Positions 1 through 37,180 of a stretch of DNA of 64,000 nt are shown one piece after another; the stretch's first letter is position 1, and every line of letters begins with the position of its first letter. The stretch covers positions 1,054,001 through 1,118,000 of the forward strand of contig NZ_CP065217.1 in the NCBI RefSeq assembly GCF_015767675.1, written 5' to 3'. A model generated the notes under the pieces. The model saw only the letters and a program-made list of their open reading frames with translations. It made no database searches and was not told where the DNA came from. Made by a program: the position numbers and the translations under genes. The DNA comes from Vibrio navarrensis. Lineage in GTDB: Bacteria; Pseudomonadota; Gammaproteobacteria; Enterobacterales; Vibrionaceae.

Positions 1-3000
1 CCCCGCAACAGAGCATCAGTGTTGATACACAGACGCCGACGGGCCACAGCGTGACGTTTGGCGATACGTTGTACTCGAATGCGGAGAAAACGGCGGCGTC
101 ATTCAGCTTTAGCAACGCGGAAGCGGGGGCCAACTACAGCTACACCATCAGCAGCTCTAATGGCGGCAGCAACGTGACGGGCACGGGCACGCTTGCCAGC
201 GCCAGTGAGACCCTCAGTGGCATCGACCTGTCCAATCTTAATGACGGCACCCTGACGCTGTCGGTCATCGTCACGGACAGCGCAGGCAACAGCGCCTCGG
301 CGGTGACGGCGAGCAGCACGCTCGACACGGCGGTACCGACGGGCCACAGCGTGACGTTTGGCGATACGCTGTACTCGAATGCGGAGAAAACAGCGGCGTC
401 ATTCAGTTTTGGCAACGCAGAAGCGGGGGCCAACTACAGCTACACCATCAGTAGCAGCAATGGCGGCAGCAACGTAACGGGCACGGGCACGCTCGCCAGC
501 GCCAGTGAGACCCTCAGTGGCATCGACCTGTCCAATCTTAATGACGGCACCCTGACGCTGTCGGTCATCATCACGGACGGCGCGGGCAACAGCGCTTCGG
601 CGGTGACGGCGAGCAGCACGCTCGACACCGCAGCACCAACAGTGACCATCAGTGACGACACAACGGGCACGGCCACGGGCGATGTGCTGTACACCTTTAC
701 CTTCAATGAGAACGTGACGGGCTTTACCGAAGACGACATCACCGTATCCGGTGGAACCAAGGGCACCTTCACGGCCGTCAGTGGCACGGTCTACACCCTA
801 GTGGTGACGCCAACGGCCAACAGCACCAGCAACCTCACGGTGGATGTGGCGGCGAGTGTGGCGACAGACACGGCGGGGAACCCGAACAGCGCGGCGACGC
901 AAAGTGTGCAAGTGGTCGACACGGCGCTGCCAAGCATTGGCATTAGCAGCGACAAATCAGCCCTGAAAGTGGGTGAAACCGCGACGCTGACCTTCACCTT
1001 GTCGGAAAACAGCAATGACTTTGCGGCGGACGACATTACCGTGACCGGCGGCAGCTTGTCGGGCTTTACCGGCAGCGGCACCAGCTACACCGCGACCTTT
1101 ACCCCGACCGCTAATACGACCAGCACGGCGACCATCAACGTGGCGGCGAATACCTTTACCGATGCGGCGGGCAACCACAACACGGCGGCCCCGCAACAGA
1201 ACATCGGTGTCGATACCCAAACGCCGACGGGCCACAGCGTGACGTTTGGTGATACGTTGTACTCGAATGCGGAGAAAACGGCGGCGTCATTCAGCTTTAG
1301 CAACGCGGAAGCGGGGGCCAACTACAGCTACACCATCAGCAGCTCTAATGGCGGCAGCAACGTGACGGGCACGGGCACGCTCGCCAGCGCCAGTGAGACC
1401 CTCAGTGGCATCGACCTGTCCAATCTTAATGACGGCACCCTGACGCTGTCGGTCATCGTCACGGACAGCGCAGGCAACAGCGCCTCGGCGGTGACGGCGA
1501 GCAGCACGCTCGACACGGCGGTACCGACGGGCCACAGCGTGACGTTTGGCGATACGCTGTACTCGAATGCGGAGAAAACGGCGGCGTCATTCAGCTTTAG
1601 CAACGCGGAAGCGGGGGCCAACTACAGCTACACCATCAGCAGCAGCAATGGCGGCGGCAGCGTGACGGGCACGGGCACGCTCACCAGCGCCAGTGAGATC
1701 CTCAGTGGTATCAACTTGTCCAATCTCAATGACGGCACCTTGACGTTGTCGGTCATCGTCACGGACAGCGCGGGCAACAGCGCCTCGGCGGTGACGGCGA
1801 GCAGCACGCTCGACACGGCGGTACCGACGGGCCACAGCGTGACGTTTGGCGATACGCTGTACTCGAATGCGGAGAAAACGGCGGCGTCATTCAGCTTTAG
1901 CAACGCGGAAGCGGGGGCCAACTACAGCTACACCATCAGCAGCTCTAATGGTGGTAGCAGCGTGACGGGCACAGGCACGCTTGCCAGCGCCAGTGAGACC
2001 CTCAGTGGCATCGACCTGTCCAATCTTAATGACGGCACCTTGACGCTGTCGGTCATCGTGACGGACAGCGCAGGCAACAGCGCCTCGGCGGTGACGGCGA
2101 GCAGCACGCTCGACACGGCGGTACCGACGGGCCACAGCGTGGCTTTGAATGACACTACTTATAACGCCTCGGAAGCGAGTTCAGCGAGCTTTACCTTTAG
2201 CGGCGCAGAAAGTGGTTCAGCCTATAATTATGTATTAAGCAGTAATGGCGGTGGCACTGATGTAACAGGTTCAGGCAGTATCAGTACAGCGGATCAGCTC
2301 GTGAGTATTGGTGATATCAGCAGCCTAAATGATGGAACCCTAAGCTTGTCGGTGACTGTCACTGACGATGCGGGTAATGCAGCAGCACCTGTACTAGCTA
2401 CCGCTACACTCGATATCACTCAACCAACAGTGAGTATTAACAGCGACAAGTCGGCGCTCAAAGCTGGCGAAACGGCAACACTCACGTTTACCTTGAGTGA
2501 GTCGTCGAGTGACTTTGCTGAATCGGATGTCACCGTCACTGGCGGCAGTCTTTCTAACTTTGCGGGCAGTGGTAGCAGCTACACGGCTACCTTTACGCCG
2601 GAGATAGACAGTACCAGTGCAGCGACGATTAACGTGCCGGCAGATGTCTTTACCGATGCTGCGGGGAATAGCAATACTGCTGCGTCTCAACTGTCTATGA
2701 GCGTTGATAGCTTAGTGCCGAGTGTGACTATCTCGAGTGATAAATCGGCGCTGAAAGCGGGTGAAACCGCGACGCTTACCTTTACCTTAAGTGAGTCGTC
2801 GAGTGATTTTGCCGAGACGGACATCACAGTCAGTGGCGGTACGTTGTCTGGCTTTTCAGGCAGCGGCATCAGCTACACGGCGACCTTTACACCGGCGGAA
2901 GAGAGTACGGCGAGCGGCACCATTGATGTTGCCACAGGCACATTTACCGATGCCTCTGGTAACAGCAACAGCGCAGCAACACCAATCTCTATCAGTGTCG

Positions 3001-6000
3001 ATACTGTGCTTCCAACCGTTAGTATTACTAGCACCAGCGATGCGCTGAAAGCGGGTGAAACGGCAACGCTTACCTTTACCTTGACTGAATCAGCAACTGA
3101 TTTTGCCGAATCTGATGTGACCGTTGCTGGCGGAACGCTTTCTAACTTTGCGGGCAGTGGCACCAGCTACACGGCCACATTTACACCTGCAGAAGAGAGC
3201 ACTGAGGATGCAACCATTGATGTTGCCGCAGAGAAGTTTAGCGATGCGGCTGGCAACCTCAATACGGCAGCGACTCAGTTGGTGATCTCAGTGGATACGG
3301 CGATCCCGACTGGGCATAGCATCAGCATTGATCAGGAGAGCATTAACAAAACCAACGAACAGGCGATGAGCTTTACCTTCGCAGCAGCTGAAGTGAACGC
3401 GATGTTCACTTATAGCGTGAGCGACGGTACCGCGACCATTGACGGCGCTAGTCAAACCATCACCTCTGAAACTATGCAAGTAACGGGCATTGACGTCACA
3501 AGTTTGCAAGAGGGGACGTTAACAGTCAGCGTGGTGGTCACCGACGCCGCAGGCAATGCGTCTGATGCAGTGACGGATACCGTCACTAAACGTTACGATG
3601 TCGCGCCAACGGTGGTTGATGACAGCTTCTCTACTGAGGAAGATACGGCGAAACAATTTGATCTATTAGCCAACGATTCCGACATTAATGATGACATGGT
3701 CGCTTCTTCTGCAACGGTGAAAACGCAACCAAGTAAAGGTCAGGTGTCGATCAGCAACGGCGTTGTTACCTATACGCCAAACAGCAATGAGACAGGTACC
3801 GACACCTTTACCTATACCGTGAAAGATGCCCTGTTACAGGAGTCTCAAGAAGCGACAGTGACCGTCACTATCAGTGCCATCAATGATGCACCAGTGGCGA
3901 AAGCGTTGACCATCACTACCGACGAAGATACCGCCAGTGCGGCGCTTAGTGTGCGCAGCCAAACGACGGATGTGGAAGATGGCATCCCAACGGGTGATTT
4001 GGCATTGGTGAGCTTGCCTCAAAAAGGACAAGTGACCATTGATCAAACCGCAGGCACTTTTGTCTACACGCCGAATGCGAATGAAAATGGCAGTGACAGC
4101 TTTACTTACACTATCGCCGATAGTGAAGGCAGCGTTTCGCTTGCGGCAACAGTCAGCGTTAATATCGGTTCTGTCAATGACGCACCTGTGGCGGCGGCAG
4201 ACACACTTACCTTTGATGAAGATGTCACCTCGACACTCGATGTTTTAAGTAACGACAGTGATATCGAAGATGGGTCATTCACCGCGAGCAGTATTACCTT
4301 GCTAGATCTTGGTCAAGGCGAGGGGATATATAGTTTCGCTACGGTGAGTGTCAACGCCGATGGCACCTTGAAGATTGTACCAACAGCGAACGTGAATGGT
4401 CAGCATAGCTTTACCTACACGCTGACCGACAGTAGCCAGGCGGTCTCAGCGTCGGCAACCGTCACGCTCAATATTACGCCGGTCAATGATGCCCCCGTAG
4501 CTGTTGATAACAGTGCGCAGCTACTGGAAGAAGGCTCGTTTGAAGTCAACGTATTGGGTAACGATAGCGATGTCGATACGGGAGACCGTTTTGATCTCAC
4601 CAGCGTCAACGTGGTCGATAAGCCAGCTCATGGTAGTGTCAGCGTGACGGCGTCAGGAGCGATTGTCTACCGCCCTGAAGAAAACTACTTTGGCGAAGAC
4701 AGCTTCACCTACACAGTAGCAGACGTAGCAGGTGCGGTTTCTAACGTTGCGACAGTGACCATGACGGTCACACCCGTTAACGATGCACCAATGGCACAAG
4801 CACAGTCACAAACACTGGATGAAGATAAGAGTTTGGTGATCACGCTGGTCGGTTCAGACATTGATAACGATGATGACACTCTGCAGTACGTTATCACTGA
4901 GCAAGTTAGCCATGGTGTGCTAGAACAGTTGACCAACAACAGTTGGCGTTACACACCAGAAGCGAACTTCAATGGCTCCGACTCCTTCTTGTTCAAGGTC
5001 AACGACGGTGATCTGGACTCTACGGAAGTGCGTGTCGATCTGACCGTCAATGCGGTCAACGATATACCCACTGCGACCGATGTCAGCGCGACGGGAGAGG
5101 AAGAAACACCGCTGACCATCACCTTAAATGGTAGCGATGTAGAAGGGTCATCGCTGAGCTATCAAGTCGCCACCGCGCCAGTTAACGGTAGCGTGACCAT
5201 CACCGGTAACCAAGCGGTCTATACGGGTAACAGCAACTTCTTTGGTCAGGACAGTTTCACTTACAGCGTCAGTGACGGTGAACTCACCTCTGAAGCGGCG
5301 TTGGTAACCATTACGGTCAATAACGTTAATGACGCACCTGTGATTAGCGGTAGCCCAGCGACGCAAGTGGATGAAGATAGTGCGTATCAGTTTGTGCCTC
5401 AGGCATCGGATAATGACCCTGCGGATACACTGACCTATTCGATTGCTAACAAACCATCTTGGGCGACATTTGACACGGCCACAGGAGCACTCTCTGGCAC
5501 GCCAAGTAACAGTGATGTGGGTACGAATACGGGTATTGTGATCAGCGTATCCGATGGTAGCGTTTCGGCCTCCTTGCCAGCGTTTGCGATTACCGTGAAT
5601 AACGTTAACGATGCACCGGTTATCTCCGGTTCACCAGCAACGCAAGTGAATGAAGACAGCGCTTATCTGTTCACACCGCAAGTATCGGATGTCGACAGCC
5701 AAGCCTTCACCTTCAGTATTGCCAACAAACCTGCTTGGGCGAGCTTTGATGCAGCGACAGGTACGTTAAGTGGTACGCCATCGAATGATGATGTCGGCAC
5801 CTATACGGGGATTGTTATTACAGTTTCTGATGGCTCAGCGACAGCCACACTCAATACCTTCAGTATTGCGGTGAACAATGTCAACGACACGCCAACCATC
5901 AGTGGTACTCCTGCGCTCACAGTCAACCAAGACAGTGCGTACCGCTTTGCGCCGCAGGCAGGGGATGTGGATAGTAGCAGTTTGAGCTTCTCTATTAGCA

Positions 6001-9000
6001 ACAAACCAAGCTGGGCGAGCTTTAACACTGCAACCGGTGTGCTCAGTGGTACGCCAGCCAACGAACATGTTGGTACCACCGAGAATATCGTTATTACGGT
6101 ATCTGACGGTGAACTCAGCGCGTCTCTCGCAGCGTTTAACCTTACAGTTATTAACGTCAACGATGCGCCAGTGGCGGTCAACGACACCTTTGTCTTCACT
6201 GAAAGCAACGATGGTATCTATCTGCTTGATGTGCTGAGCAATGATAGTGATGTTGACCAAGATACGTTGCAACTGGACTGGGTAAGACCAACCTCAGGAA
6301 CCGCGACGACGGTCGGCAGCCAAATCCAGCTTGTGACGACTGCGATTGGTACCGTGACGGTGCAGTACGGTGTGAAAGATGGTAACGGAGGTAAAGCAAC
6401 CGCGAAAGCGACAGTGACCATTAACAGCGCGAAATTGGATGCGCCAACCATTACCGCGCCAGCCGATGTGGAAGTGAATGCGACCTCACTCTTTACCAAA
6501 GTGGCGTTGGGGACAGCGATCGCCGAAGACAGCACGGGTAAACCATTACCGGTCTCCTTGGTCGACAACAATACCTTCTTCCGTCCTGGAGCCAATACAG
6601 TGTATTGGCGTACCCAAGACTCGCAAGGTAATGTGGCCGAGGCGAGTCAAACCGTGATTGTGCATCCGCTTATTAGCATTTCCAAAGATGCACAAACCAC
6701 TGAAGGTACCAGCCACTCCGTGTCGGTATACCTCAACGGCCCTGCGCCGAGTTACCCAGTTGTGGTGCCTTACACGGTATCGGGGAGCACGGACAGCAGT
6801 GACCATACTCTCGCCTCGGGTGAAGTGGTCATCTCCAGCGGAACAGAAGGCAAGCTTTCGTTTGACATCCTGAATGATGGACAGAGTGAAAGTGCAGAAA
6901 CCTTAGTGATCGACTTGGACAACACGCTCAACCTCGGCAGTAAACGTCGTTATACCTTGACGATTTTTGAAGAGAACGTGGCACCTAAAGTCTCGGTCAA
7001 TGTTTCTCAGGCAGGAGAGCAGCGTAGCAAGATTGATAATAGTTCGGATTTGGTCACCATTACCAGCAGTGTGACCGATGCCAACGCGTCTGACACCCAC
7101 ACCTTTGCATGGAGTAGTAGTAACGATGCGCTCAACCAAGCGATTGTAGGCCAGACAAACAGCGACACACTGACTTTCTTGCCACAAACGCTCAGCTCAG
7201 CAATTTACACTCTGCAACTGACGGTTACTGACAACGGTACACCACCGCTTTCAGTCACCCACAACGTCTATCTTGAAGTGGTTGAGGCACTGGCAGTGCT
7301 TGGCAGTGAAGACAGTGATGGTGACGGCATTCCGGATGACCAAGAAGGCCATGGCGACAGTAATGGTAACGGCATTCCGGATTATCTGGATGCCATCTCC
7401 GACTGTAACGTGATTCAGCAAACGGTAACCGAGAACGACAGTTTCCTCATTGAGGGTCAACCAGGCGTTTGTTTGCGTAAAGGTGTCACCATAGTGGAAA
7501 ACCAGACAGGTGGAGCACGCTTGTTGGATAATGAGCTGACGGTCGACAACGAGGCGGACAACATTGGCGGTATTTTTGACTTTGTGGCGACCAACTTGCC
7601 GCAGCCAGGTCAGAGCTATCAATTGGTTATGCCGCAACGTCTGCCTGTTCCGGCGAATGCCGTTTATCGCAAGTTCCGAGCGAGCGTGGGCTGGGTCGAT
7701 TTTGTTGAAGATGCTGACAACTCGATTGCGTCTACTTCCGGTGAAGCGGGCTACTGTCCACCTCCTGGAGACAGTGCATGGACACCGGGCTTAACTGAAG
7801 GCCACTGGTGTGTGCAACTTACCGTTCAAGACGGTGGACCGAACGATGATGACGGCATGGCAAACGGCAGCGTGGTTGACCCAGGTGGTGTTGCCGCTCG
7901 CGCCAGCAGCAATGCGCTGCCACAAGCAAGCGACGATACTGCAGTGGTCACGCGCAATGGCAGCGTGGTCATTGATGTGCTGAGTAACGACACGGACGCC
8001 GACGGCGACAGCTTGACCTTGTTAGAAGGTGCTTCTGCGGACATCGGCAGTGTCAGCGTGGTAAACAATCAGTTGAGTTACACCACCCAGTCACAGTTTT
8101 ACGGTGTGGCGACCATTACCTATAGCGTGACCGACGGTAAAGGTGGTACGGGTACAGCCAAAGTAACGGTCAACGTACTTAACAATCAAAATCCACGTGC
8201 CGCGGATGATGTGGTTGAAACCAACGACCGCACGCCAGTCACGATTAACGTCCTGTCCAATGACAGTGATGTTGATAATGACGCGTTGACTTTGGTATCA
8301 ATTAATAACCCCGAGCATGGACAGGCCGTGTTGAACGCCGATCAAACGGTGACCTACACGCCGACCTTGGGCTTTGAAGGTACGGATGTTATCACCTATG
8401 TGATTCAAGACAGCCAAGGTCTGCAAGACACTGGCAAGGTGACGGTGACGGTGAAACTAGTGAAAGATGTCGATGTATCAAACAGTTCAGGAGGCCCGTT
8501 AGGCGGTATGGCATTAATGTTACTCACTCTCGCTGGCGCGCTGCGCCGCGTTGGCAAAAAAGGTTGGTTGGCGCTGCTGGCTGCGCTGAGTTTCAATTCT
8601 CAAGCGGCTTGGTATCTCGATGCGCAGATGGGCGTCAGCCATGCCGATGAGCGCAGCGCTGTCAGCATGGCGGATGTGGTCTCAACCGATGATAACGGCT
8701 TCTACCGTTCGGTTGGCTTGGGGTATCAGTTCGATGAAAAGTGGTCAGCGATGCTGCGCTATGTGGATATGGGAGAAGGAAGCGCGACGCTACGTGGCGC
8801 GACCACTTCGCCACAGGAGTACCATCAAAGTGTGGCGAGTGTTTCGCCCATTTTGGCCAGTGGTGTTGGCTTAGAAGTGGGCTATCAATTTTGGCAAAGT
8901 GACGCTTGGCATGCCAAAGTCAATCTCGGTGGCCTATTTTGGAATGCGGACATTGAAAGTACCTATCAAGGTAGCACCATTAAGACTGACATTGACGGCT

Positions 9001-9140
9001 TTAATGGCTATTTAGGTGCTGAAGTGGGGTATGCGCTTTCGGAGACATGGGGGCTCGGCTTGCAGGCTTCACGCTATTTTCTGCGAGAAAACGATGTCGA
9101 TACCATCGCGATACAACTTACATACCGTTGGGCTCAGTAG
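1..9140 (+). CDS. Giant Ig-like/cadherin-like repeat surface protein with C-terminal outer-membrane barrel (5' end outside window)
   Basis: The reading frame (codons from base 3) is open to the left edge, so the N-terminus is missing; over 3,040 residues are present. In order: five near-identical 100-residue Ig-like units (51-640, 1239-2138) interleaved with BapA-type Ig units (640-1238), a diverged copy (2139-2430), three more Ig units of about 97 residues (2430-3297), six cadherin-like repeats with NDAPVA starts (3600-5330), three putative-Ig repeats with SGSPATQ motifs (5330-6165), another cadherin-like unit, an HYR-like unit (6436-6670), a Calx-beta-like unit (6670-6970), a calcium-type [10 protein letters not shown] stretch (7309-7400), a Cys-containing module (7400-7900) and two more cadherin-like units. 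The end holds [13 protein letters not shown] (GlyGly-CTERM-like), then RRVGKK, a signal-like helix ending NSQA, and a 175-residue barrel resembling OmpA-type proteins. A role as a surface adhesin or biofilm matrix protein is inferred. Confidence 0.85.
51..2138 (+). repeat. 300-bp coding tandem repeats (five near-identical units)
   Basis: Units start at 51, 351, 1239, 1539 and 1839, each opening with GTGACGTTTGG and each 300 bp long, in frame. Units 1539 and 1839 differ at only a few bases, synonymous sites included. Two unrelated Ig units (640-1238) split the array into a pair and a triplet, and a diverged copy follows at 2139. The near identity points to recent duplication or gene conversion. 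Assembly collapse and strain-to-strain length variation are likely here. Confidence 0.93.
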
Positions 9141-34924: not shown

Positions 34925-37180
34925 ATGACTCTCTTAGGTAACAATTGGTTCTTGGCTTCGTTCTCAGCGACCCTTATCTCGGCGAATTATTGGCCGATCA
35001 TGCCTTCCTGGCGGTGGTTATTGCTAATCGTGATTGCCATCTTATTAATTATGAGACTGAAAAGGTGGCGGAGCTCACTCGGTATTGGCTTGGCGCTTGT
35101 GGTTGCGATTTGTTCGGGAAATCTAATCCAGCGGAAAGCGGACACCCTGTTTCAGGCAGGGGGGAATATTATCATAAATGGGCAAGTTGACAGCCCCTTT
35201 AAACAAATAAGTCACGGCTATGAAGGTATTATTTATATTACGCACATTAATGGTCAACCTCTGCGATTTTTTGATCGGCCAAGAATTCGCCTGATTGCGC
35301 CAATTTTGCTCACTCAGAATGATGTCTTTGCAGGCTGGGTAAACATCAAACCCATTTATGGACTGTTGAACCAAGCTGGATTTGATAGTGAAACGTTCGC
35401 TCTCAGCCAACAAGTCTTAGCCAGAGCGACACTCGATCCACAGCATTCGTGGCGGGTTACTTCGGCCTACTCGGTAAGGCTGGCGCTGATTGAAAAAGTC
35501 TCCCTGCAATTGGCGGAGGCATCGCACTCAGCTTTGCTGATGGCACTCAGTTTTGGCGTGCGTGACCAGATCGAAGCTGAACAGTGGCAGCAGCTCAAAC
35601 AGAGCGGATTGATTCATCTTCTTTCGATCTCTGGTCTACATATTGGTATGGCGTTTGGATGTGGCTATTGGCTCGGACATTGGATGCGGGCAGGGCAAAG
35701 ACCGCTTCTTTTCGTGCCGACCATGCTCGGTTTGGTGTTTGCTTGGGCTTATGCTTGGTTGGCCGGCTTTACCCTACCGACTCAGCGAGCGCTGATTTTT
35801 TGTCTCTTGATGGCATCGTTTTCGCTGATGAACTGGCAGATAAGTCGTTGGAGTACCTTACTTTGGGTGCTGGCATGCTGTCTGGTGTTATCGCCTTTTT
35901 CCCCGCTATCTTCCAGTTTCTGGCTATCTTTTCTCGCCGTCGGTGCCGTTTTTCTCACCATCAACCGAGGCCATTTTCATGCATCATGGCGAAAAAGAGT
36001 AACAAACCTGCTACTCACGCAAGCCTTGTTACTACTCTTTCTCGCGCCAGTGACTGGGCACTTCTTTTCCGGTTTTAGCTTTGCAGCGCTGATATACAAC
36101 TTAGTGTTTATCCCGTGGTTTACGCTGGCGGTGGTTCCTTTGGTGTTGGCTGGTTTGTTGTTTTCGGCCTTGTCTTTGTCAAGCGTCGCCACGCTCATTT
36201 GGCAACTGGCAGATTGGTCTTTACAACCGCTCAGCATGCTATTGCCTTATGCACGTCACGGCTGGTGGCCACTCACCGACGGGCAGATCGCCGTGATTAC
36301 CCTTTTGGCTCTGCTGATCCTGTACGGACGCCTGTTTACGCCCAGTTTTGCGTTGACTGTATTTGGGATAAGCATTGCGATGACGATAGGTTATCGCCAG
36401 CAGGGTGAGGTCCGTATTGATCTATTGGATGTCGGCCATGGTTTGGCGGTATTGATTGAGAAAAATGATCACTTGCTGCTTTATGATACTGGCAAAGGTT
36501 GGTTTGACGGCAGTATTGCTCAGCAGGTCATTGAACCGGTGATGCTTAAACGGGGGCATCGCGGCTTGGACGGTTTAATTCTTAGCCACCTAGACAATGA
36601 CCACGCTGGAGGGAAAGCGTATGTCGAGGCCATGCTATCTCCGAAATGGCGCATGAGCAGTTCGCAGCAAGAGCACTATTTACCCTGTCTTCGCGGTGAG
36701 CAGCATGAATGGCAAGGGATGAAGCTTGAAGTACTGTGGCCACCGAAACTGGTTAAACGGGCCTATAACCCTCACTCGTGCGTAATTCGGCTCAGCGATT
36801 GGGAAAATCAGTTTTCAATCTTACTCACGGGGGACATTGATGCCGTTGCCGAGTGGATCTTGGCTCGAGAGCCTGAAAAGGTGCGAAGCGATATTATGTT
36901 GGTTCCGCATCATGGCAGTTTAACCTCGTCCTCACCCGATTTTGTCGCTGCCGTAACGCCGCAGTTGGCGTTGGCTTCTCTTGCTAAAGGCAACCAGTGG
37001 GGCATGCCGAGAAAAGAGGTGTTACGCACTTATCAGCAACACGAGGTACGCTGGTTAGATACCGGAGAAGAAGGGCAGATTACCGTTTTGGTTCACCAAG
37101 GTCGTTGGTCAGTAAAAACGCTGCGTAGCAATAGTTTGCAGCCTTGGTATAGGCAGATGCTACGGAACCAAGTAGAATGA
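34925..37180 (+). CDS. comEC: DNA uptake channel ComEC/Rec2
   Basis: A 751-residue inner-membrane protein that carries incoming single-stranded DNA into the cytoplasm during natural transformation. N-terminal helices and an OB-like soluble domain lead to the competence domain with about ten membrane helices ([14 protein letters not shown], then about 200-480). The C-terminal third is a metallo-beta-lactamase-like domain: [10 protein letters not shown], the metal-site motif [16 protein letters not shown] and PHHGS. The metal ligands look intact, which fits a nuclease role. AGGA lies close before the ATG. Downstream msbA begins about 30 bases after the stop, as in other Vibrio and enteric genomes. 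Confidence 0.95.

Follow-up and report, generated by a model that had tools for sequence, protein, structure and literature searches.

A putative two-protein precursor in Vibrio navarrensis: a giant adhesin and an outer-membrane barrel joined through an internal GlyGly-type signal and a second predicted signal peptide

Why should the gene of a giant adhesin run, in a single frame, past what looks like its sorting signal and straight into a second signal peptide and an outer-membrane barrel? The question is raised by a 64,000-nucleotide stretch of Vibrio navarrensis DNA (assembly GCF_015767675.1, contig NZ_CP065217.1, positions 1,054,001-1,118,000; hereafter, the window), in which an open reading frame at 51-9140 on the forward strand is uninterrupted up to its stop codon at 9138-9140. 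The whole open frame reaches upstream of the window and spans 5590 codons; if translation begins at its first ATG, near G000:C1:1046413 and about 7.6 kb upstream of the window, the protein has about 5575 residues. We consider it highly probable, judging from conservation and genome comparison, that this product is a precursor of two proteins, cut by rhombosortase after a GG pair and by signal peptidase after SQA to yield an anchored adhesin and a barrel partner. A polyprotein cut twice had been proposed by a model that was given only the sequence of this DNA (the sequence-only reading), and it is the best supported account of the locus because the predicted cut sites are conserved, a basic loop lies between the two helices, relatives exist in which the two parts are separate genes, and nearly all carriers have a rhombosortase.

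To our knowledge, polyproteins are rare in bacteria. The fusion is not described in the literature covered on rhombosortase, GlyGly-CTERM, bacterial polyproteins, tandem-95 repeats, or AcfA (subscription papers and preprints were outside the scope), and the second protein has been overlooked because databases name these products as one “Ig-like domain-containing” or “tandem-95 repeat” protein.

The junction and the barrel

The frame comprises the following features, with positions given in the window.

51..7565, + strand: 3' part of the giant Ig-like/cadherin-like repeat (adhesin) region (open reading frame and domain matches)
7566..7895, + strand: choice-of-anchor U domain (NF041766; residues 2506-2615 of the window frame; 41.6 bits, cut-off 32)
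8184..8450, + strand: last tandem-95/Big_9 repeat ahead of the junction (PF17963, residues 2712-2800)
8484..8543, + strand: internal GlyGly signal, SSGG plus hydrophobic helix 1, with the expected rhombosortase cut after the second Gly, between 8495 and 8496 (profile match; both Gly at least 90% conserved; helix 6-24)
8489..8510, + strand: AGGAGG plus ATG, candidate internal start (sequence; comparative tests)
8544..8561, + strand: basic loop RRVGKK, predicted to be cytoplasmic (sequence; Lys/Arg count in relatives)
8562..8606, + strand: second predicted signal peptide, h-region plus NSQA, with the expected signal peptidase I cut between 8606 and 8607 (Ala at -1 at least 90% conserved; helix 26-36)
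8607..9137, + strand: 8-stranded OmpA/AcfA-like outer-membrane barrel (PF13505, AlphaFold2 model, Foldseek)

At the junction, NSSGGPLGG (8481-8507) is followed by a hydrophobic stretch, RRVGKK, a second hydrophobic stretch, NSQA (8595-8606) and, from 8607, AWYL. This is the uninterrupted order that the sequence-only reading had described, and both the open reading frame and 58 of 58 homologues confirm it. The second signal has the marks of a type I signal peptide, namely a basic n-region, an h-region, and small residues at -3 and -1, and the N-terminus of the adhesin precursor, judged by eye, resembles a long Sec-type signal. The repeats in the adhesin part are of the Big_9, Big_12, cadherin-like, and He_PIG types (domain library scan). 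As a side observation, recurring reverse-strand open reading frames at window 51-2135 point to repeat units of about 300 bases, almost identical to one another, in this part of the adhesin gene, where its length is likely to vary.

The barrel scores 44.1 bits against PF13505 (cut-off 28.7), the match starting within the second signal peptide. An AlphaFold2 model built on 34 aligned sequences (mean predicted local distance difference test score, pLDDT, 85.3; predicted template modeling score, pTM, 0.73) has two helices (6-24 and 26-36) ahead of eight long strands and some short pieces, and strand 1 opens at the second residue past the expected signal peptidase cut. The top Foldseek match in the PDB is Escherichia coli OmpA (9fzd_A; TM-score 0.81 on the target). 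With the gathering score passed and eight strands modeled, the domain belongs to the OmpA-like small barrels (PF13505) and does not qualify as the 12-stranded C-terminal translocator of type V autotransporters. PF03797 was absent from the matches listed for the window and matched weakly in 4 of the 34 aligned rows. Barrels of the eight-stranded OmpA type are not known to have a wide pore, so that a role as secretion pore, which the sequence-only reading had entertained, is unlikely. Some partners (fused L010/L067, paired L011 and L126) appear by eye to carry an OmpA-type C-terminal domain.

Spread, conservation, and unfused relatives

A protein search with the C-terminal 250 residues as query returned 58 proteins, whose named sources are V. 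navarrensis, V. cidicii, V. alginolyticus, V. diabolicus, V. antiquarius, V. parahaemolyticus, other Vibrio, and Photobacterium. All 58 contain the junction and 57 continue in frame through the barrel to its end; the other (P0057) departs from the frame within the barrel. The length filter of this search (0.55-1.75 times the query) shuts out any small barrel encoded on its own. A search from the most distant protein (P0058) gave 23 proteins including itself, each spanning its whole C-terminal region, with Colwellia and Cognaticolwellia among the sources.

Genomes were searched with a 13-row alignment (A2; 329 Vibrionaceae and 394 order genomes) and with a 34-row alignment (A3; 369 class genomes). 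The fused junction is present in at least 39 of the 329 Vibrionaceae genomes (plus one broken copy, in G278), in at least 35 of the 394 order genomes, spread over 11 families, and in at least nine of the 368 class-sample genomes besides that of the window (G765, G819, G760, G816, G995, G856, G963, G854, and G748). These are lower bounds, the matches having been read in part (19 loci besides the window's in the class sample and, beyond the loci given by the searches, two sets of 20 further stretches). Many weak matches are frames of about 350-400 codons, OmpA-like where read. In two Vibrio genomes (G141 and G098), an upstream stop leaves open frames of 569 and 642 codons, respectively, and the junction is intact in both. 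The fused layout is real and recurrent and is no assembly error.

Conservation at the junction was read from A3, which comprises the window and 33 loci with 28-96% identity to it, hand-picked from the junctions that could be located, a selection that slightly favors conservation of the GG. The junction columns conserved in at least 90% of rows are G4 and G5 (the two glycines), A42 (the Ala at -1 of the predicted signal peptidase site), and W44 (the second residue past the cut, where the barrel starts). A literal GG is kept in 73 of the 76 fused loci, and the inter-helix loop has at least two Lys or Arg residues in 76/76 (Asp or Glu in seven), the topology expected for a chain predicted to thread out, in, and out again. 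Lys and Arg were counted because a net positive charge (likewise 76/76) is partly built in, the loop having been defined from the first Lys, Arg, or His. Junctions were located automatically in 71 of the 76 loci; of the rest, L104 and L105 have GG by eye, L111 reads SSSGSLGG, and L132 and L133 read GKGGAGSMSES. The junction register of L106, L116, L117, and L134 was set by hand.

In ten groups of close relatives (29 sequences), the ratio of nonsynonymous to synonymous variation (pN/pS) is 0.16 in the upstream part, 0.29 in the GG plus helix 1, 0.21 in the loop plus helix 2, and 0.16 in the barrel. Because the ratio is low across all of these, the whole frame is translated and constrained. Among the C-terminal regions of fused and paired relatives, 61 of 68 match the choice-of-anchor U domain (E up to 0.01), which suggests that adhesins of this type and the barrel have long been partners. 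One genome (G748) has an Ig-like segment between the second signal and the barrel, a layout that suits a separate second product.

The sequence-only reading had called for homologues both with and without the fusion, and both kinds were found. At ten loci the same two parts are neighboring genes, with a GlyGly-type tail at the C-terminus of the upstream protein and a signal-peptide-like stretch at the start of the downstream frame. Most pairs overlap, five of them by ATGA, one by 7 nt, and one by 8 nt; a single nucleotide separates the genes of another pair, and the gap is longer in the remaining two. Two loci were kept as pairs in spite of an ambiguous barrel start codon (L012, in G114) or a signal-like stretch without basic residues (L112), and the class sample holds four further pairs (G843, G868, G959, and G697). 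In one of these (L161, G868:C76), the tail of the first protein contains Cys (GGGGGGC) and looks MYXO-CTERM-like by eye, although a rhombosortase scoring above the cut-off is encoded in the genome.

On a tree of 69 barrels (53 fused, 10 paired, and 6 single, with singles counted as unfused), the fused state changes 11 times, at least seven of these changes being forced by well-supported branches, or eight times without the singles. The changes were counted without direction (fusion or fission), on a tree with several long branches and a bootstrap that is not fully settled. Well-supported sister couples of one fused and one paired row are L079/L091, L128/L126, and L100/L112.

The genome of the window encodes a rhombosortase (TIGR03902, 158.7 bits; cut-off 84) and a type II secretin (531.5 bits). 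In the order sample, rhombosortase exceeds the cut-off in 232 of 394 genomes, namely in 33 of 35 with the fusion (best E 2e-34 or lower in each of the 33) and in 199 of 359 others (Fisher p 2.3e-6, not corrected for kinship); in the class sample, it is found in 9/9 fused genomes. A rhombosortase frame lies directly downstream, on the same strand, of a 691-codon fused GlyGly-barrel gene in G995 (L156, G995:C47), a genome with a second rhombosortase elsewhere, and none was found in the flanks (mostly 1.5 kb) of the other fused loci fetched.

Two cuts, an internal start, or one chain

If the precursor is cut twice, the N-terminal Sec signal would start export and the repeat region would enter the periplasm. 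The GlyGly helix would then stop transfer, with the GG side out and the basic loop in, and the second helix would serve as a signal peptide that restarts export, this time of the barrel. Signal peptidase I would cut after NSQA, freeing the barrel for insertion into the outer membrane. Rhombosortase would cut after GG and, by analogy with VesB, the adhesin would receive an anchor of lipid type and enter the type II route. The hairpin left between the two cuts, about 37 residues long, would be discarded, and adhesin and barrel would be made one to one. The rhombosortase cut between 8495 and 8496 is placed by the same analogy (PMC11389362); for VesB, a mass shift of +197 Da is reported (PMC6219818). 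GlyGly and rhombosortase are described as sufficient for membrane association, with a further signal required to cross the outer membrane (PMC13393428). The most likely role of the barrel is to partner or anchor the adhesin in the envelope; that it anchors the choice-of-anchor U adhesin as such is our guess.

The sequence-only reading had called the internal signal GlyGly-CTERM-like. A Gly-rich motif with GG, a helix, and a basic cluster are indeed present, but the location at the extreme C-terminus is not, as the signal lies 217 codons before the stop. The layout works like GlyGly-CTERM yet falls outside its strict C-terminal definition. In the genome of the window, the family model TIGR03501 has 11 matches, nine of which end 20-28 residues before a stop (L028, L029, L030, L031, L033, L034, L035, L037, and L038), eight of the nine exceeding the cut-off; the junction motif lies 217 residues from its stop. 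A match at window 36127-36189 (L032, G000:C1:1090127; 16.5 bits), 93 residues before the stop of a 109-codon frame, looks like chance.

Several observations weigh against a double cut. Taken alone, the window motif is sub-threshold for TIGR03501 (15.2 bits in the genome scan, 13.5 for a 73-residue piece, and 8.6 for a 219-residue piece; cut-off 15.5). When the A3 rows are scanned together with their barrels, just 12 of the 34 match the model at E up to 10, and of ten hand-picked homologous junctions six pass, three reach 14.2-15.4 bits, and one has no match. GlyGly-CTERM signals, as described, sit at the extreme C-terminus (PMC3237569). VesB with Pro at P1' shows 14% activity (PMC11389362), and the window site may be a poor rhombosortase substrate because it, too, carries Pro at P1'. 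A permissive count of small-x-Ala sites (75/76) proved uninformative as evidence for the second cut, with shuffled windows averaging 71 and windows 60 residues further on giving 64, and some of its automatic picks fall too early (e.g., L069 and L100); the evidence for this predicted site is the aligned Ala at -1. In G854 (L168), GTGS replaces GG, and in a 545-codon frame of G426 (L131, G426:C95) the GlyGly motif and one helix run almost directly into the barrel, without a proper second helix. Finally, no rhombosortase exceeds the cut-off in two genomes with the fusion, G426 (a 99% complete draft) and G484 (an 80% complete draft). Five GlyGly matches in G426 nevertheless exceed the cut-off, the two internal ones included.

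It is improbable, but less so than the other alternatives, that initiation at an internal ATG in the GlyGly helix (8508, or the second Met codon at 8517) makes the barrel separately, with the fused chain a by-product or a second output. The sequence-only reading had pointed to this possibility, and the AGGAGG (8489-8494), 13 bases ahead of the in-frame ATG at 8508, is present as it claimed. A Shine-Dalgarno-like element with ATG occurs in 14 of 50 junctions, where synonymous resampling predicts 5.6-5.7, and the element alone, which is formed by the Gly codons of the motif, in 21 of 50 against 12.6 expected; canonical C-terminal tails have no such excess (4/20 against 3.2 expected, 20 of 24 tails having been located). 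Synonymous variation (pS) is also lower in the block of GG and helix 1, at 0.35 versus 0.41-0.43. However, the excess becomes weak when the sample is thinned to 29 rows of <45% identity, with 7 cases of element plus ATG against 3.6 expected (reached in 57 of 2000 draws) and 10 of the element alone against 6.5 (177 of 2000 draws), and 14 of 71 junctions have no in-frame ATG near the motif. An internal start is not needed to account for the barrel, and it leaves the open frame and the intact helices of many lineages unexplained.

Still less probable is a single uncut chain in which the barrel is the covalent C-terminal anchor of the adhesin, as in an autotransporter, and the hairpin merely a linker. 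The domain order (passenger, then C-terminal barrel) in a continuous frame would suit such a chain, as would L131 with its one hydrophobic stretch. It does not account for two helices with a basic loop between them, for the conservation of both expected cut sites, or for the ten two-gene relatives, and the barrel has 8 strands where autotransporter translocators have 12. Because strand 1 of the window model starts at the second residue past the cut site, an uncut chain would hold the barrel at the inner membrane and could hardly reach the outer one; linkers are longer in other members. Three loci considered as natural controls, in the sense of uncut fusions without a hairpin, were dropped after longer sequence was fetched: L166 (G748) does have GG, a helix, RR, and a second signal ahead of its Ig-like segment, L154 (G789) stands alone as a protein that has an N-terminal signal (by eye), and L159 (G1046) gave no clear layout.

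That gene decay or an assembly error joined two neighboring genes scarcely merits belief, for although separate-gene relatives exist, as the sequence-only reading had allowed they might, and a few copies are damaged (P0057 and G278), the identical fusion occurs in many species and families, including the window's own assembly of 3 contigs, with purifying selection through the junction.

Returning to the precursor cut twice, we think it fairly likely, with less assurance than for the V. navarrensis gene itself, that it exemplifies a general bacterial polyprotein cassette. With a rhombosortase signal and a signal peptide both placed internally, one mRNA and one chain would give a giant lipid-anchored adhesin and its outer-membrane partner at 1:1, an arrangement that would have been gained or lost again and again alongside overlapping gene pairs, and rhombosortase would need no free C-terminus. 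If true, the action of bacterial rhombosortase extends from C-terminal tails to internal sites, the family is a natural and repeated experiment in exchanging overlapping genes for a processed fusion, and the giant choice-of-anchor U adhesins acquire a specific partner, an OmpA-type barrel.

Comparison with known systems

A tandem-95 repeat gene that need not correspond to the adhesin gene, rtx1, had large-fragment mutations in 4 of 8 phage-resistant mutants of V. alginolyticus (PMC8521149). The junction most resembles the GlyGly-CTERM/rhombosortase system of VesB and others (PMC3237569, PMC6219818, PMC11389362, PMC13393428), with which it shares the Gly-rich motif, the helix, and the basic cluster, as well as an apparent N-terminal export signal (by eye) and a rhombosortase in the genome. 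In G995 the enzyme gene is adjacent, as is reported for most single-target genomes (PMC3237569), the likeness being that of adjacency alone. The difference is that the signal here is internal and leads directly into a second signal peptide and a further exported protein.

Compared by model names, TIGR04219 (“OMP_w_GlyGly”) and PdsO (TIGR03789, sortase-associated and OmpA-like) are also outer-membrane proteins tied to sorting systems. TIGR04219 is matched weakly by 4 of 34 rows at E up to 10 (best 0.0095), and TIGR03789 by 3 of 68 C-terminal regions, in a group that matches many OmpA C-terminal-domain families alike. The barrel itself agrees with the AcfA/OmpA-type 8-stranded barrels (PF13505, PF01389, NF033908) in fold, position of the signal peptide, and profile matches, although it reaches only 35.9 bits of the 100 required by the AcfA family model (NF033908). 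Barrels of that type are usually encoded by separate genes, whereas here the barrel is the tail of a giant adhesin.

As for polyproteins, FbcH of Bradyrhizobium (cytochrome b/c1) is cut by signal peptidase, its two membrane proteins being parted at an internal signal sequence. Unlike the adhesin-barrel fusion, it has one cut only, and its first product has no sorting signal. Type V autotransporters share with the fusion the order of passenger and C-terminal barrel in one frame; they differ from it in that the fusion has 8 strands, a hairpin with two expected cut sites, and relatives in which the barrel is a separate gene.

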